Of a DNA stretch of 64,000 nt, positions 2,632 through 34,672 are shown in pieces. The notes under the pieces were generated by a model, which worked only from the letters and a program-made list of their open reading frames with translations, was not told the DNA's origin and did no database searches. This DNA comes from Lentibacter algarum (lineage in GTDB: Bacteria; Pseudomonadota; Alphaproteobacteria; Rhodobacterales; Rhodobacteraceae), in contig NZ_JAHKQI010000008.1 in NCBI RefSeq assembly GCF_018860975.1, positions 373,746 through 437,745 of the forward strand, written 5' to 3'. Both the position numbers and the translations under genes were made by a program. Every line of letters starts with the position of its first letter. The stretch's first letter is position 1.

Positions 2632-2722
2632 AACTTTCGGCGGGTTTGCCTTGGGGTGAAAGTTACAAAAGTTGCCCTTGGTATTTGTCCCAAAAATCAG
2701 CCTTTATGCTTTCACTTTGGGA
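2632..2722. promoter_or_regulatory. Divergent promoter region with two dyads
   Basis: Between the DUF6356 gene and the Lrp/AsnC regulator lie two inverted repeats: AACTTTC (2632-2638) with GAAAGTT (2658-2664), and TCCCAAA (2688-2694) with TTTGGGA (2716-2722). Lrp/AsnC proteins often bind near their own gene, so these could be operator sites. That is inference from position only. Confidence 0.35.
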
Positions 2723-2744
2723 AAACGTCCCGCATATATGGGGT

Positions 2745-3203
2745 ATGATCGAAATTGATGACATAGACAGGCGCATTTTGCGAAATGTTCAAGCCAACAG
2801 TGACCTCTCGCTTGATGCGCTCAGCGCAGAGGTGGGCCTGTCGCGCAACGCCTGTTGGCGGCGACTCAAGCAGTTGCAGCAGGCCGGGGTGATCAAGCGC
2901 CGTGTAGCCCTGCTTGACGCTGGCAAGCTCGGCCTTGGCCTGACGGTGTTCATTCAGGTGCGCGCAGCCACCCACACCGCCGATTGGTCAACCGATTTCG
3001 CCCGCGCAGCCCGTGCCTTGCCCGAAATACAGGCTGTCTACCGCATGTCCGGCGATCTCGACTATTTGCTGCGCGCCCGTGTCAAAGATATGGTCGGTTA
3101 CGATGCCCTCTACCAAAAGCTGATCAAGCGTGTTTCAATGGCTGACGTGTCGGCGAGTTTTGTGATGGAAGACATCAAAGACACCACCGAACTGCCAATC
3201 TGA
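2745..3203 (+). CDS. Lrp/AsnC family transcriptional regulator
   Basis: A 152-residue regulator. The N-terminal winged helix-turn-helix covers about residues 3-60 (IDDIDRRILRNVQANSDLSL then LSRNACWRRLKQLQQAGVI). The C-terminal RAM/effector domain follows, with the usual YRMSGDLDYLLRARVKDM. Members sense amino acids and act as dimers or octamers. ATG 2745 gives the standard MIEIDDIDRRIL start. In-frame ATGs further upstream would add a tail not seen in the family. The SMR transporter starts 10 bases downstream, so this regulator may control export of an amino acid or amine, but the ligand is not visible. Confidence 0.9.
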   Translation: MIEIDDIDRRILRNVQANSDLSLDALSAEVGLSRNACWRRLKQLQQAGVIKRRVALLDAGKLGLGLTVFIQVRAATHTADWSTDFARAARALPEIQAVYRMSGDLDYLLRARVKDMVGYDALYQKLIKRVSMADVSASFVMEDIKDTTELPI

Positions 3204-3213
3204 GAGCTGTCAA

Positions 3214-3543
3214 ATGCACTACATCTACCTGTTTTTCGCTATCCTCGCTGAAACGATCGGCACCACCGCGCTGCAAGCCAGTCAGCAGTTCACCCGCCTC
3301 TGGCCCTCGGTGCTGGTTGTGCTGGCTTATAGCTTCAGTTTCTACCTGCTTGCACTGGCTCTCAAAGTCATGCCCGTCGGAATCGTCTATGCGCTTTGGT
3401 CAGGCCTTGGCATCGTCTTCATCGCGATCATCGGTTACTTGGTTTTCGGACAGAAACTCGACACACCAGCGATTCTCGGTCTCGCTTTGATCATCCTCGG
3501 TATCGTCGTAATCCAGCTGTTTTCAAACACCACAACACACTGA
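3214..3543 (+). CDS. Small multidrug resistance (SMR) family transporter, EmrE-like
   Basis: A 109-residue inner-membrane protein with four predicted helices, the normal size for the family. The essential proton/substrate-coupling glutamate of helix 1 is Glu13 (FAILAETIGTTAL), and the helix 3 motif YALWSGLGIVFIAIIGY is intact. It resembles EmrE-type drug/quaternary-ammonium exporters more than the Gdx subtype encoded at 31207. SMR proteins work as antiparallel dimers exchanging cations for protons. It follows the Lrp/AsnC gene by 10 bases, so the two are probably one operon. A repeat with two hairpins begins 20 bases after the stop. Confidence 0.88.
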   Translation: MHYIYLFFAILAETIGTTALQASQQFTRLWPSVLVVLAYSFSFYLLALALKVMPVGIVYALWSGLGIVFIAIIGYLVFGQKLDTPAILGLALIILGIVVIQLFSNTTTH

Positions 3544-29859: not shown

Positions 29860-30684
29860 TTGGGCCGGTTTGATCCCGGCCATCTTCAGCGCCAGTTGTT
29901 CGTAGCGGTCGGCCATGATCGCATATTGGATGCCGTTCATCAGCTCATAGACTTTCTGCATCACCGGATGCTCTAGCGCCAGCGCGTAGATCTCGAGCTC
30001 GTCGTCATCAAACGGCTCATAGACAGTTGCCGCCGACACCAGCGCCGCTTGCTCAAGCTCGTCTGCCATGTCTTCTGCCTGCTCGGCCATCAAGGCGCGC
30101 AGCGTGGCTTCGTCAAGGCGGTCGATCACCTCGGCGTCCGAGGCCGCAAGCAAAAACCTGATCTGCACTTCCTGTGAAGCGCGCGATCCGGTGTTTGACG
30201 GGTCAATCGCGTGGTTCATACGTTTGAGGATATCAAGCCGTTTGCCGCCGGATTGTTCTAGCTCGGCGACAATCGCCTCTCCGCGCGGGGCTTCGCCGCT
30301 GGTATCGACACTGGAATGGGCCGCATTTTCAACGGCAACAAGCCGCTGGCCAAGCTCTGTGGCATAAAAACCGGCGGCGTGAGCAAGCATCTCATCGTCC
30401 ATAGCCGCCGCAAGGAAAGACAGCGCGTCAGCTTCGATCTGTTTGGCGTCAAACACGCGGTCGGCTGTCTGTGTCCACTGCAAGCCAAAGTCGCTGGCTT
30501 CAAGCCCGAGCATCTGCGGCGCATCTTGCGCCCCAAGGCGCAGACTTTCCAGCGCCACGTCAAAACCTGTGACTGTCAGAAAGGCTTTTATCGCGTCAGT
30601 GTTGGCACCCTGATCATCGTCAGCCTGAACCGCCCCCGAAAGCGCGGCAAACACCGCAAAAACCCACACTGCAATTACTCTCAT
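29851..30684 (-). CDS. DUF2059 domain protein, exported
   Basis: A 277-residue protein with a signal peptide (MRVIAVWVFAVFAALSGAVQA) and an acidic, helical body. The segments FYATELGQRLVAVE and LEHPVMQKVYELMNGI match the DUF2059 family (periplasmic, unknown function), in which the pattern F-Y-x-T-x-x-G is typical. Here the domain may occur twice in diverged form. Start at 30684 is preferred over 30696 because GAGG lies at the right distance before it. The last codons and stop lie in the tandem repeat at 29824-29859. Confidence 0.72.
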   Translation of the reverse strand: MRVIAVWVFAVFAALSGAVQADDDQGANTDAIKAFLTVTGFDVALESLRLGAQDAPQMLGLEASDFGLQWTQTADRVFDAKQIEADALSFLAAAMDDEMLAHAAGFYATELGQRLVAVENAAHSSVDTSGEAPRGEAIVAELEQSGGKRLDILKRMNHAIDPSNTGSRASQEVQIRFLLAASDAEVIDRLDEATLRALMAEQAEDMADELEQAALVSAATVYEPFDDDELEIYALALEHPVMQKVYELMNGIQYAIMADRYEQLALKMAGIKPAQEL

Positions 30685-30813
30685 CGAAAGCCTCATTTGT
30701 TTTGTTTCTGGCAACCTACGCCTTTTGGCGGCCAACTCAAGCCTGCTAAAAGCCGTCTAGCACAAATACGCGCATCCAGATATCATCTGGCCAAGCAACC
30801 AGAAGGACGTCGC

Positions 30814-31194
30814 ATGGCAAACACCAAACCCGATAAAGTGCATGGCTTTGCGCATGTTTTGGCCGCAACGCGCTACTCACTTGCTGGCGCGCGCAGGCTT
30901 TGGGGTGAAACCGCCTTTCGCCATGAGGCGACACTTGGCGGACTCGCCTTGCTGCTCATGGCACTGGTCGGCGCGAGCCTGTCGCAACTGGCCGTCGGCC
31001 TCGTGCTGGTGTTGGTCACCTTCGCCATCGAAGCCCTCAACACTGCGCTGGAAGAGATCGTCGATCACATATCACCAGACTATTCAGACATGGCCAAACA
31101 CGCAAAAGACCTCGGCTCATTTGCTGTCATGTGCATGTTGTTCGCCAACGCAGCTTACCTTGCTTGCGTGCTCATCGTTTGCTTCAACAGCTAA
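30814..31194 (+). CDS. dgkA: Diacylglycerol kinase
   Basis: A 126-residue inner-membrane kinase with three helices that phosphorylates diacylglycerol to phosphatidic acid with ATP. The active-site signature is EALNTALEEIVD followed by the usual HAKDLGSFAV. Length is normal for the trimeric prokaryotic type. Start at 30814 gives the short cytoplasmic N-terminus; the frame is open upstream but lies over the DUF2059 gene. It ends 12 bases from the convergent gdx gene. Confidence 0.92.
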   Translation: MANTKPDKVHGFAHVLAATRYSLAGARRLWGETAFRHEATLGGLALLLMALVGASLSQLAVGLVLVLVTFAIEALNTALEEIVDHISPDYSDMAKHAKDLGSFAVMCMLFANAAYLACVLIVCFNS

Positions 31195-31206: not shown

Positions 31207-31530
31207 CTATGTGACGGGGCTTGACAGCTTCATCAGCACAATGCCCGCGACAATCAACAGTGCCGCCAAAAGCCGCAGCGGCGTGACCGCCTCTCCGAGC
31301 ATTATCACGCCCAAGGCAAAGGCCCCGACCGCTCCGATACCTGTCCAGATCGTGTAGGCGGTGCCAAGCGGCAGCGAGCGCATCGCCAGCGACAGCAAAA
31401 CAAAGCTCGCTATCATCGCAGCAAAGGTAATGCTGCTGGGCACAAGCAGCGTAAACCCTTCCGACTTTTTCATGAAGTAAGCCCAAACAATTTCGAGCAG
31501 GCCTGCGAGAACAAGATAAATCCAAGGCAT
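31207..31530 (-). CDS. gdx: Guanidinium exporter Gdx (SugE), SMR family
   Basis: A 107-residue four-helix protein, close to E. coli SugE/Gdx: it starts [20 protein letters not shown] with the coupling Glu13, and has [20 protein letters not shown] and a C-terminal [11 protein letters not shown]. The Gdx subtype exports guanidinium in exchange for protons. The assignment is supported independently by a guanidine-II riboswitch in its leader. Start at 31530; an ATG at 31554 would lie inside the riboswitch. This is the second SMR gene in the window; the one at 3214 belongs to the EmrE-like group. Confidence 0.95.
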
Positions 31531-31552
31531 CACCGCGCCCTTTTCTATTCGC

Positions 31553-31595
31553 ACGGGCCGTCCCGCAAATTTCCAGAAAGCGCGGGTCGTCCCGC
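31553..31595 (-). promoter_or_regulatory. Guanidine-II riboswitch (mini-ykkC)
   Basis: On the minus strand two hairpins with ACGR loops lie in tandem: GCGGG-ACGA-CCCGC (31595-31582) and GCGGG-ACGG-CCCGT (31566-31553), with a 15-base linker. Identical small stems with ACGR loops define the guanidine-II aptamer, in which two hairpins bind guanidinium and dimerise. The second hairpin ends 22 bases before the gdx ATG and about 10 before AGGG, so translational control by freeing the ribosome binding site is likely. Confidence 0.9.
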
Positions 31596-31647
31596 TTGAG
31601 TCTGCTTAGCGATACGCTGACCAGCGGTCAACACTCTGCCAGCGCAC

Positions 31648-33120
31648 CTAAAACGCCCGCGCCGCCACAACCGCTTTTTGCCAGCGCGCATAGCTGGCCT
31701 CGCGGCTCTCTGCGTCCATCTTTGGCACAAAGGAGCGTTCAAGCTGCCACATCCTGGCAAAGCCCTCGTGGCCCTCATAAAGCCCTGCGCGCTGTCCGGC
31801 GAGCCATGCGGCGCCAAGCGCTGTTGTTTCCAAGATCACCGGCCTGTCCACCTGCGCGCCTGTGATGTCGGCCAGAAACTGCATCGTCCAGTCGGACGCC
31901 GTCATGCCGCCGTCAACGCGCAACGCCGCCTCCGCCGTGCTGCCCCAATCCGAGCGCATTGCCTCAAGTAAGTCTCGTGTCTGAAAGCCGACCGATTGTA
32001 ACGCTGCGCGGGCCATTTCCTTTGGCCCTGTGTTACGTGTCAGCCCGAACACCGCACCACGTGCATTCGCGTCCCAGTAAGGCGCGCCAAGGCCGGTGAA
32101 GGCCGGCACAATGACGACCCCCTCCTCGGCCCCTTCAGCCAGTGCCTGTGTCTCAGAAGCTTCGTCAATCATTTGCAAGCCGTCGCGCAGCCATTGCACC
32201 ACCGCCCCGGCAATAAAGATCGAGCCCTCCAGCGCATATGTCACCTCGCCGTTAAGCTGATAGGCGATCGTCGTCAGCAGGCGGTTCTCCGAGAGCACTG
32301 GCTCGCTCCCTGTGTTGAGCAAAGCAAAACACCCCGTGCCATAGGTCGCTTTCAGCATCCCCGGTTCAAAACACCCCTGCCCGATTGTGGCCGCTTGCTG
32401 GTCTCCGGCCATGCCGAGCACCGGAACCGCTCCGCCGAACAGCTCGCAGATGCCAAAGTCGGCCGCACAGTCTTTCACCTCGGGCAACAATGCCTGCGGG
32501 ATGTTGAGCATGTCGCACATATCCTCAGACCACGCCCCCTCGCGAATGTCGTAAAGCATGGTGCGTGCCGCGTTGGTGGCGTCGGTTGCATGCACCTTCC
32601 CGCCTGTCAGCTTCCACAACAGCCAGCTATCGACAGTGCCAAAAGCCAGCTCACCCGCCTCGGCCCTGCTGCGTGCGCCCTCAATGTTGTCGAGCAACCA
32701 CGCCAGCTTGGTGCCGCTAAAATACGGATCAAGCAGCAGGCCGGTTTGCCGCCGCACAGCCGCCTCATGCCCCGCATCTTTAAGGGCGTCACACATTTCA
32801 GCGGTGCGCCTGTCTTGCCAAACAATCGCATTGTGCAGCGCCTCGCCCGTGGCGCGATCCCACAGCAGCGTTGTTTCACGCTGGTTGGTGATGCCGATCG
32901 CCGCCAGATCACCCCCGGTCAGCCCTGCGTTCTTAAGGGCAACTTCACAAGTCTGCCTGACACTGCTCCAGATATCCTCGGCACGGTGCTCGACCCAACC
33001 GGAGGCGGGGAATATCTGCTCGAACTCCTCCTGAGCACTGGCAACGGGGCGCATATCGGCATCAAAGATGATCGCGCGCGAGCTTGTCGTCCCTTGATCA
33101 ATCGCCAGAATGTAGCTCAT
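31648..33120 (-). CDS. glpK: Glycerol kinase
   Basis: A 490-residue FGGY-family kinase that makes sn-glycerol 3-phosphate from glycerol and ATP. The N-terminal phosphate motif is [20 protein letters not shown] features include [15 protein letters not shown] and [12 protein letters not shown], and the late adenosine-binding motif is [16 protein letters not shown]. Start at 33120 follows AGGGAG. It begins one base after the glpD stop, so the two form a glpDK operon. Confidence 0.96.
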
Positions 33121-33121
33121 G

Positions 33122-34672
33122 CTAAGCTCCCTTTTGCAGATAGGCCTCAAGCGCTTGGCGGCCTTTGGCATCAATCTTCAGCCCGAGTTTACTGCGCCGC
33201 CAGAGAATGTCATCAGCCTCGCGCGCAAACTCGTGCTCTACCAGCCAGTCAACCTCGCGCGCCGTTAGCCCTGCGCCAAAGGCCTCGCCAAGGTCTTCAA
33301 GCTTGTTTGCACCAGCCAAAAGCGCCTGCGCATCAAGCCCGTAAGCCCGCATCAACCGGCGGGTTTGATCAGCTTCCAGAAAGCCGAACATCGCTTGCAA
33401 ACGCGCAACCTCTGCATCAAAGGCCTGCACATCAAAGTCACCGCCTGGCAAAGCCGCCTCTTGCGTCCAAGCGCCTGTGGCCTGTTCAAAGAAGCCTGAA
33501 AGCTTCTCACACCCCGCCTCGGCCAGCTTGCGATAGGTGGTGATCTTTCCGCCAAAGACCGTCAGCAATGGTGCGGTTTCGCCCTCAAGTCTGAGCTCAT
33601 AGTCGCGTGTCGCGGCGGCGGCGTCCCCCGCGCCTTCGTCTTGCAGAGGGCGCACGCCGGAGTATGTCCAGACGATGTCTTGCTCGGTGATGCCTTGCTC
33701 GAAATACCGGTTGGCGAAATCGAGTAAATACTGTTGCTCCTCGGGCGTGCAAACAGCCCGCGCGTCAGGCCTGTCGTGCTCGGCGTCGGTGGTGCCAATC
33801 AGGGTGAAGTCTTGCTCATAGGGAATAGCAAAAATGATGCGCCCGTCAGAGCCTTGAAAGAAGTAGCATTTATTGTGATCATAGAGCTTGCGGGTGACGA
33901 TATGCGAGCCGCGCACCAGCCGGATATCACCACGCATTGGGGTTTCAATCGTGCCATCAAGCACGTCGGAAACCCAAGGGCCGGCGGCGTTCACCAAGGC
34001 CCGCGCTTTGAGCACTCCTTGCTCGGTGTTCACATGCCACAGCGCGCCCTCACGCTTGGCCGAAAGCACCTTGCAGCGCGTGCGAATATCCGCGCCGAGC
34101 TTTGCAGCATCTCGCGCATTGAGTGCCACCAAACGCGCGTCATCAACCCAGCAATCGGAATATTCATAAGCCCGCCTGAACTTGGCCTTCAGCGGTTTGC
34201 CCTCGGGGCTATTTGCAAGGCTCAAACGCGTTGTCGCAGGCAAAATCTTGCGCCCGCCCATGCTGTCATACAGGAACAGGCCAAGCCTGATCAGCCAGTT
34301 TGGCCGCCGGCCCTTAAGCCACGGCATGAACAGCCCCAACAGCTTTGAACTCGGCGTGCCGCCCTCAAAACGCATGTCGTTTGACAGTGGCAAGACAAAG
34401 CGCATCGGCCATGAAATATGCGGCATATTCCGGAGCAGAACTTCGCGCTCTTTCAGGGCTTCTCGCACCAGCCGGAACTCGAAATACTCAAGATAGCGCA
34501 GCCCGCCGTGAAACAGCTTGGTTGACGCCGACGAGGTGCCAGAGGCCAAGTCGCCCTGCTCGGCCAAACACACGCTAAGCCCGCGCCCTGCGGCGTCACG
34601 CGCAATGCCGCAGCCATTGACACCACCACCAATGATAAACACGTCGTAAACTGTCTCGGGCTCGCGGCTCAT
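33122..34672 (-). CDS. glpD: Glycerol-3-phosphate dehydrogenase (FAD, GlpD type)
   Basis: A 516-residue membrane-associated flavoprotein that oxidises sn-glycerol 3-phosphate to dihydroxyacetone phosphate and passes electrons to quinone. FAD is bound through [20 protein letters not shown] near the N-terminus; the family signature [18 protein letters not shown] follows. Start at 34672 ([10 protein letters not shown]) has GGAG six bases upstream; an ATG at 34684 is less likely. Together with glpK it allows use of glycerol. No glpR or glycerol transporter gene is visible in the window. Confidence 0.96.

Follow-up and report, generated by a model that had tools for sequence, protein, structure and literature searches.

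A probable guanidine-II riboswitch before a Gdx-type SMR gene, its canonical relatives before PACE genes and a candidate six-base-loop form in other alphaproteobacteria

Guanidine-I (RF00442) and guanidine-II (mini-ykkC, RF01068) riboswitches respond to the same ligand. Two hairpins define guanidine-II RNAs, each with an ACGR tetraloop that a G-C pair closes (PMC5486947), and the class is described as an ON switch of translation whose two loops kiss (PMC5486947, PMC7544219, PMC12186494). For G. violaceus, PMC5486947 points to a possible stem that shares bases with P2 as well as with the ribosome binding site. Multidrug transporters account for 65% of mini-ykkC regulons (PMC3766115). Among small multidrug resistance (SMR) proteins, W16 is conserved in the Gdx subtype and replaced by Gly or Ala in the Qac subtype (PMC7695847); the residues considered with it here, E13, S42, Y59 and W62, are taken from PMC7695847 and PMC9574504.

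The stretch of DNA analysed here (the window, 64 kb) carries one match to RF01068, which covers the whole length of the model and scores 32.3 bits, the gathering score being 32. Its E value is 0.012 for the window against all Rfam families, 1.9e-4 for a scan of 1001 bases and 1.7e-4 in a search of the genome. The preliminary description had proposed two hairpins with ACGA and ACGG loops at this place and had assigned them to guanidine-II. Both hairpins are present, and the covariance model returned RF01068 at the place and on the strand that had been named. The hairpins carry ACGR tetraloops closed by G-C pairs, the linker of 16 nt compares with a usual length of at least 13 nt, and P2 ends 23 nt before the ATG (31530) of gdx, near the ribosome binding site of this guanidine-related efflux gene. 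To speak of the exact architecture of the class was fair wording. The features are collected in Table 1. Judged by its sequence, the element is a canonical guanidine-II switch on gdx, an ordinary member with nothing of substance unlike the known kind; aptamer and placement are direct observations.

Table 1. Features of the gdx leader and of its surroundings, in window coordinates
Feature	Position	Strand	Basis
Guanidine-II aptamer, full RF01068 match	31554..31598	-	covariance model
P1 hairpin GCGGG-ACGA-CCCGC	31582..31595	-	sequence; helix supported on 30 relatives
P1-P2 linker, 16 nt	31566..31581	-	sequence
P2 hairpin CGGG-ACGG-CCCG	31554..31565	-	sequence; helix supported on 30 relatives
Likely ribosome binding site AAAAGGG, 7 nt 5' of ATG	31538..31544	-	by eye
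Possible OFF hairpin, CCGUGC (31556-31551) with GCGCGG (31538-31533)	31533..31556	-	folding; inference
gdx, SMR family, Gdx subtype, 107 aa from ATG	31207..31530	-	Pfam, structure matches, residues
glpK, glycerol kinase, upstream of gdx, outside the switch	31648..33174	-	domain scan
Second SMR gene, EmrE-like, no guanidine-II leader found	3214..3543	+	structure matches, RF01068 search

The score exceeds the cut-off by 0.3 bits. It is low because the stems are short and because the linker is two deletions shorter than that of the model. With 150 of 216 first-look candidates scored, the element is the sole RF01068 match above cut-off found in the genome; up to E 10 that search gave one further match, a fragment of 13.1 bits. 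No other family of Rfam 15 reaches its own cut-off within the window, and Guanidine-I has no match in the genome at E<=0.01. We consider the match to be beyond chance because of where it lies, ahead of an SMR gene, and because relatives support it. Two unrelated GC-rich hairpins, for example a glpK attenuator or terminator, might be invoked, as glpK ends 50 nt upstream of the aptamer and GC-rich hairpins are common in the region. Such an origin is scarcely credible: the whole model is matched, no U run follows either hairpin on its 3' side, neither hairpin appears in the terminator scan, and covariation in relatives with the same gene refutes it as far as sequence can. No sigma-70 promoter on the minus strand between glpK and the aptamer was listed in the promoter scan; a TTGACC-17-TAAGCA candidate found there by eye was too weak to claim.

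The best solved-structure matches of the gdx product are to the SMR guanidinium exporter Gdx-Clo (PDB 8vxu, 2.8e-28; 6wk5, 1.8e-27), as compared with 6.7e-13 for EmrE. It aligns with Gdx-Clo without gaps across 104 residues and carries all five key residues, E13, W16, S42, Y59 and W62. An in-frame GTG at 31554 would give a product of 115 aa; scanned from this codon, with eight extra residues, the protein scores 90.2 bits on PF00893 (SMR; cut-off 23.7) and 117.6 bits on the NCBIfam SugE equivalog NF008512, below its cut-off of 126. We therefore call it Gdx-type and not a SugE equivalog. The Gdx-type sequence itself is plain, as the preliminary description had held, and guanidinium transport is predicted from it; the "firm function" claimed there is too strong a wording for a predicted activity.

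The same description had set gdx apart from an EmrE-like SMR gene at 3214 that lacks such a leader, and this distinction holds. No RF01068 match was found at the second gene, and its product matches EmrE at 1.4e-32 as against 1.3e-13 for Gdx-Clo. Both proteins belong to one fold family (PF00893), but the second has Gly in place of W16. They are the two SMR genes above the Pfam cut-off in the genome, and both lie in the window. Annotation from sequence often mixes up two such SMR genes; for one of them the expected function is fixed here, with guanidinium as the predicted inducer. A true guanidine-II aptamer might instead serve a substituted guanidine, since PMC5486947 reports that binding of compounds carrying side groups differs from that of guanidine by no more than a factor of four. 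Against this stand ACGR loops of the canonical form and the W16 of a Gdx-type gene, and we hold it to be highly unlikely.

Canonical relatives were sought in a family sample of 198 genomes. RF01068 matches at E<=0.01 occur in 44 of them, and matches above cut-off in 31. All 47 family matches were inspected, together with six from a genus search. Every one of the 32 family matches above cut-off precedes a guanidine-type gene (20 PACE, 10 SMR, 2 DUF1989). Among the 15 below cut-off, five precede PACE and two SMR genes, none a DUF1989 gene, and eight (L031, L076, L077, L079, L080, L081, L083 and L084) have none of these genes downstream and were set aside. Where a PACE, SMR or DUF1989 gene is present (32/32 above cut-off, 7/15 below), it starts within about 75 nt of the match. 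Genes were assigned by Pfam on five proteins (three PACE, PF05232; one SMR; one DUF1989) and by tblastn to these for the others. PACE (PF05232) is the commonest guanidine-II partner in the family, as at L004, L005 and L009.

The alignment used to measure covariation holds 30 loci out of the 40 that bear such a gene. In the two helices standard pairs make up 86.9% against 76.4% after shuffling, double-change cells number 38 against 14.9, and the covariation score is 0.284 against 0.122; none of 500 shuffles was as high on any of the three measures. Two weaker measures were matched by 48 and 4 of 500 shuffles. The signal also exceeds that of slid partners, and both helices are shown by covariation in relatives.

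At E<=0.1, three of the seven genomes of the genus have a match: that of the window, G202 and G203. In G202 the match scores 39.7 bits and stands before a gdx 82% identical to that of the window. The five matches in G203 (20.9-25.3 bits; L063-L067) were rejected, being GGGGGAC...GTCCCCC repeats without an ACGR loop. These tandem hairpins are scattered through the G203 genome and form a repeat family of their own. With four of the seven genomes lacking a match, the five of G203 belonging to another repeat, a score barely above cut-off and short P1 and P2 stems, one could suppose that the window element is a decayed guanidine-II member that has lost its regulation. Both loops, all stem-closing pairs and the gene are nevertheless intact, and all loop and stem bases invariant in the 30 relatives are present. 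Decay is very improbable.

We consider it very probable that the leader is a guanidine-II riboswitch that switches on translation of gdx. By analogy with other members of the class, from which ligand, kissing, ON direction and transport are carried over, a rise in guanidinium would let the P1 loop (ACGA) and the P2 loop (ACGG) kiss, each binding one guanidinium. Kissing would keep P1 and P2 folded, so that their 3' arms could not pair with the downstream region of the ribosome binding site. With the site free, Gdx would be made and would export guanidinium in exchange for protons. The masking arm may be the 3' arm of P2, pairing with 31538-31533, or the 3' arm of P1 together with the linker, pairing with 31546-31533.

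Folding offers a candidate for each arm. In the possible OFF hairpin of Table 1, CCGUGC takes part of the 3' arm of P2 and GCGCGG lies between AGG and AUG; because it shares this part of the arm, the hairpin cannot coexist with the whole of P2. It is a stem of the kind pointed to in G. violaceus. The P2-arm hairpin of the window is predicted at -9.7 kcal/mol against a shuffled mean of -5.1. Over 13 SMR loci 29 of 100 shuffles were as good as the real leaders, over 23 PACE loci none of 100. For the 3' arm of P1, the mean duplex with the leader at 39 loci is -10.48 kcal/mol as compared with -8.29 for shuffled leaders (0/300 as low). The duplex of the window itself, formed by the P1 3' arm and linker with the binding-site region, reaches -16.2 kcal/mol and is equalled by 70 of 300 shuffled leaders. 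Locus-specific P1-leader covariation was absent at the 39 loci (own pairs -10.47, swapped pairs -10.38; 1902 of 5000 permutations as low), in a comparison for which one locus, L012, had been cut at a wrong ACG. When P1 and P2 were forced in a fold of 31598-31516 computed without kissing or ligand, the binding site stayed closed because the linker pairs with it. Masking of the ribosome binding site in the window RNA is likely, but the case for it at this locus is weak.

Among 30 loci of gdx homologues in the family, three (L036, L042 and L044) have a canonical P2 and a six-base P1 loop and were missed by Rfam. A pattern scan of contigs for this form gave at least 119 stretches, 80 of which were examined as loci together with these three seeds. 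Of these 83 loci, 45 stand before an SMR gene and 38 do not; the latter are mostly chance matches in GC-rich coding sequence. At the 45 SMR loci among the matches listed, the last G-C pair of P2 lies 18-27 nt from the start codon, and the P1 loop is CCACGU in 37, CAACGU in three, CAACGA in three and CCACGA in two. If four pairs in P1 and five in P2 are required, 44 of the matches listed are left and 42 of them precede an SMR gene, the exceptions being L135 and L141; three further SMR loci have three P1 pairs. The hosts of such gdx leaders include Sphingomonas, Brevundimonas and Siccirubricoccus (loci including L036, L042, L044, L089-L166 and L207-L211). At L135:2294-2341, in Brevundimonas sp. 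Leaf363, the six-base-loop form stands before a non-SMR protein of 84 aa, by eye a small membrane protein.

None of 19 variant loci scanned reached the RF01068 gathering score. With permissive Rfam settings, 13 loci gave RF01068 in five cases, at 20.8 to 26.9 bits; the other eight gave nothing up to E 10. By its sequence the six-base-loop form is therefore kin to guanidine-II, below the RF01068 line. P1 shows three double changes, all in one pair (0/500 shuffles by cells, 114/500 by pairs), and P2 none; taken alone this covariation is thin, because P1 hardly varies and P2 not at all. At L208 and L210, which came from the class search, six-base loops are by eye kept on other stems. In the 45 loci the segment between the final GG of P2, which it includes, and the start codon folds as a third hairpin with a mean of -11.36 kcal/mol (shuffled -6.08, 0/100 as low), and in 36 of the 45 at least three of the four binding-site bases are paired. 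This hairpin would compete with P2, since its 5' arm begins with the outer GG of P2. The modelled expression platform of the variant is thus better supported than its helix covariation.

A search of 385 genomes of the class with model R1 found at least ten elements; 11 candidates were scored per genome, and misses are therefore likely. Five have a six-base P1 loop (L207-L211), four a canonical P1 (L212, L213, L215 and L216) and one, L214, no clear P1. L210 has an altered P2, and its six-base-loop leader is followed by a gdx-like start and a broken frame, with a stop after 25 codons. In a pattern scan of the class the real pattern occurred in 4 of 385 genomes and a scrambled-loop control in none of 385, a control that says little because the real pattern itself is so rare. 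Three of the four matches are one near-identical sequence from one genus, with no match to the SMR, PACE or DUF1989 references.

A protein tree was built from 62 riboswitch-led SMR proteins, 47 with variant and 15 with canonical leaders; L133, L163 and L210 were left out for broken or short frames. The loop form clusters on this tree (5 changes, shuffled mean 13.6, 0/500 as low), and a single variant clade is not rejected (p 0.188). Many forks stay open because the proteins are short. E13 and W16 are present in all 62 proteins, that of the window included. The family of the window genome also contains G044, which has the same gdx protein, residue for residue, as an Antarcticimicrobium genome; the host is therefore likely to be an alphaproteobacterium of Paracoccaceae/Rhodobacteraceae type.

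These results raise the possibility that many alphaproteobacterial gdx leaders are a variant guanidine-II switch under the Rfam cut-off, with a six-base P1 loop on a GAGG/CCUC stem, a canonical P2 and a third hairpin masking the binding site, the loop insertion making the switch asymmetric, and that PACE proteins are candidate exporters. We see the case for this as evenly balanced. If it is true, two extra bases in just one of the kissing loops would leave the guanidine switch asymmetric. Such a switch might have a single canonical pocket, or a third loop-loop pair between U of P1 and A of P2, and its affinity or ligand might differ as well. With one kissing loop changed and the other kept, these RNAs would be a naturally occurring test of the share that each loop, P1 and P2, has in binding guanidinium. 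Together with the canonical form before PACE genes, it would mark PACE proteins as candidates for the export of guanidinium or related cations, and with PACE genes under a guanidine switch the natural substrate of these pumps would become testable. The interest of the locus beyond that of a routine member rests on these relatives, namely on PACE as the commonest family partner and on the six-base-loop form. In the accessible parts of the open-licence literature, including PMC12186494, PMC6195760 and PMC7736828, we found no link of guanidine-II with PACE or AceI, and in those of the open-licence literature searched no description of a six-base P1 loop. As this search covered open-licence papers only, either may already be in print.

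Some further genes were noted in passing. A DUF1989 gene lies elsewhere in the genome of the window (G000:C1:375827-376363, L226), with no RF01068 match there; a role in guanidine or urea metabolism is possible. The plus-strand ORF 30316-31194 carries a prokaryotic diacylglycerol kinase domain (PF01219, residues 186-286) and converges with gdx, the two stops being at 31194 and 31207. Within 2646-3543, an ORF that by eye resembles an Lrp/AsnC-type regulator ends 10 nt before the EmrE-like SMR gene, and the two probably form an operon.
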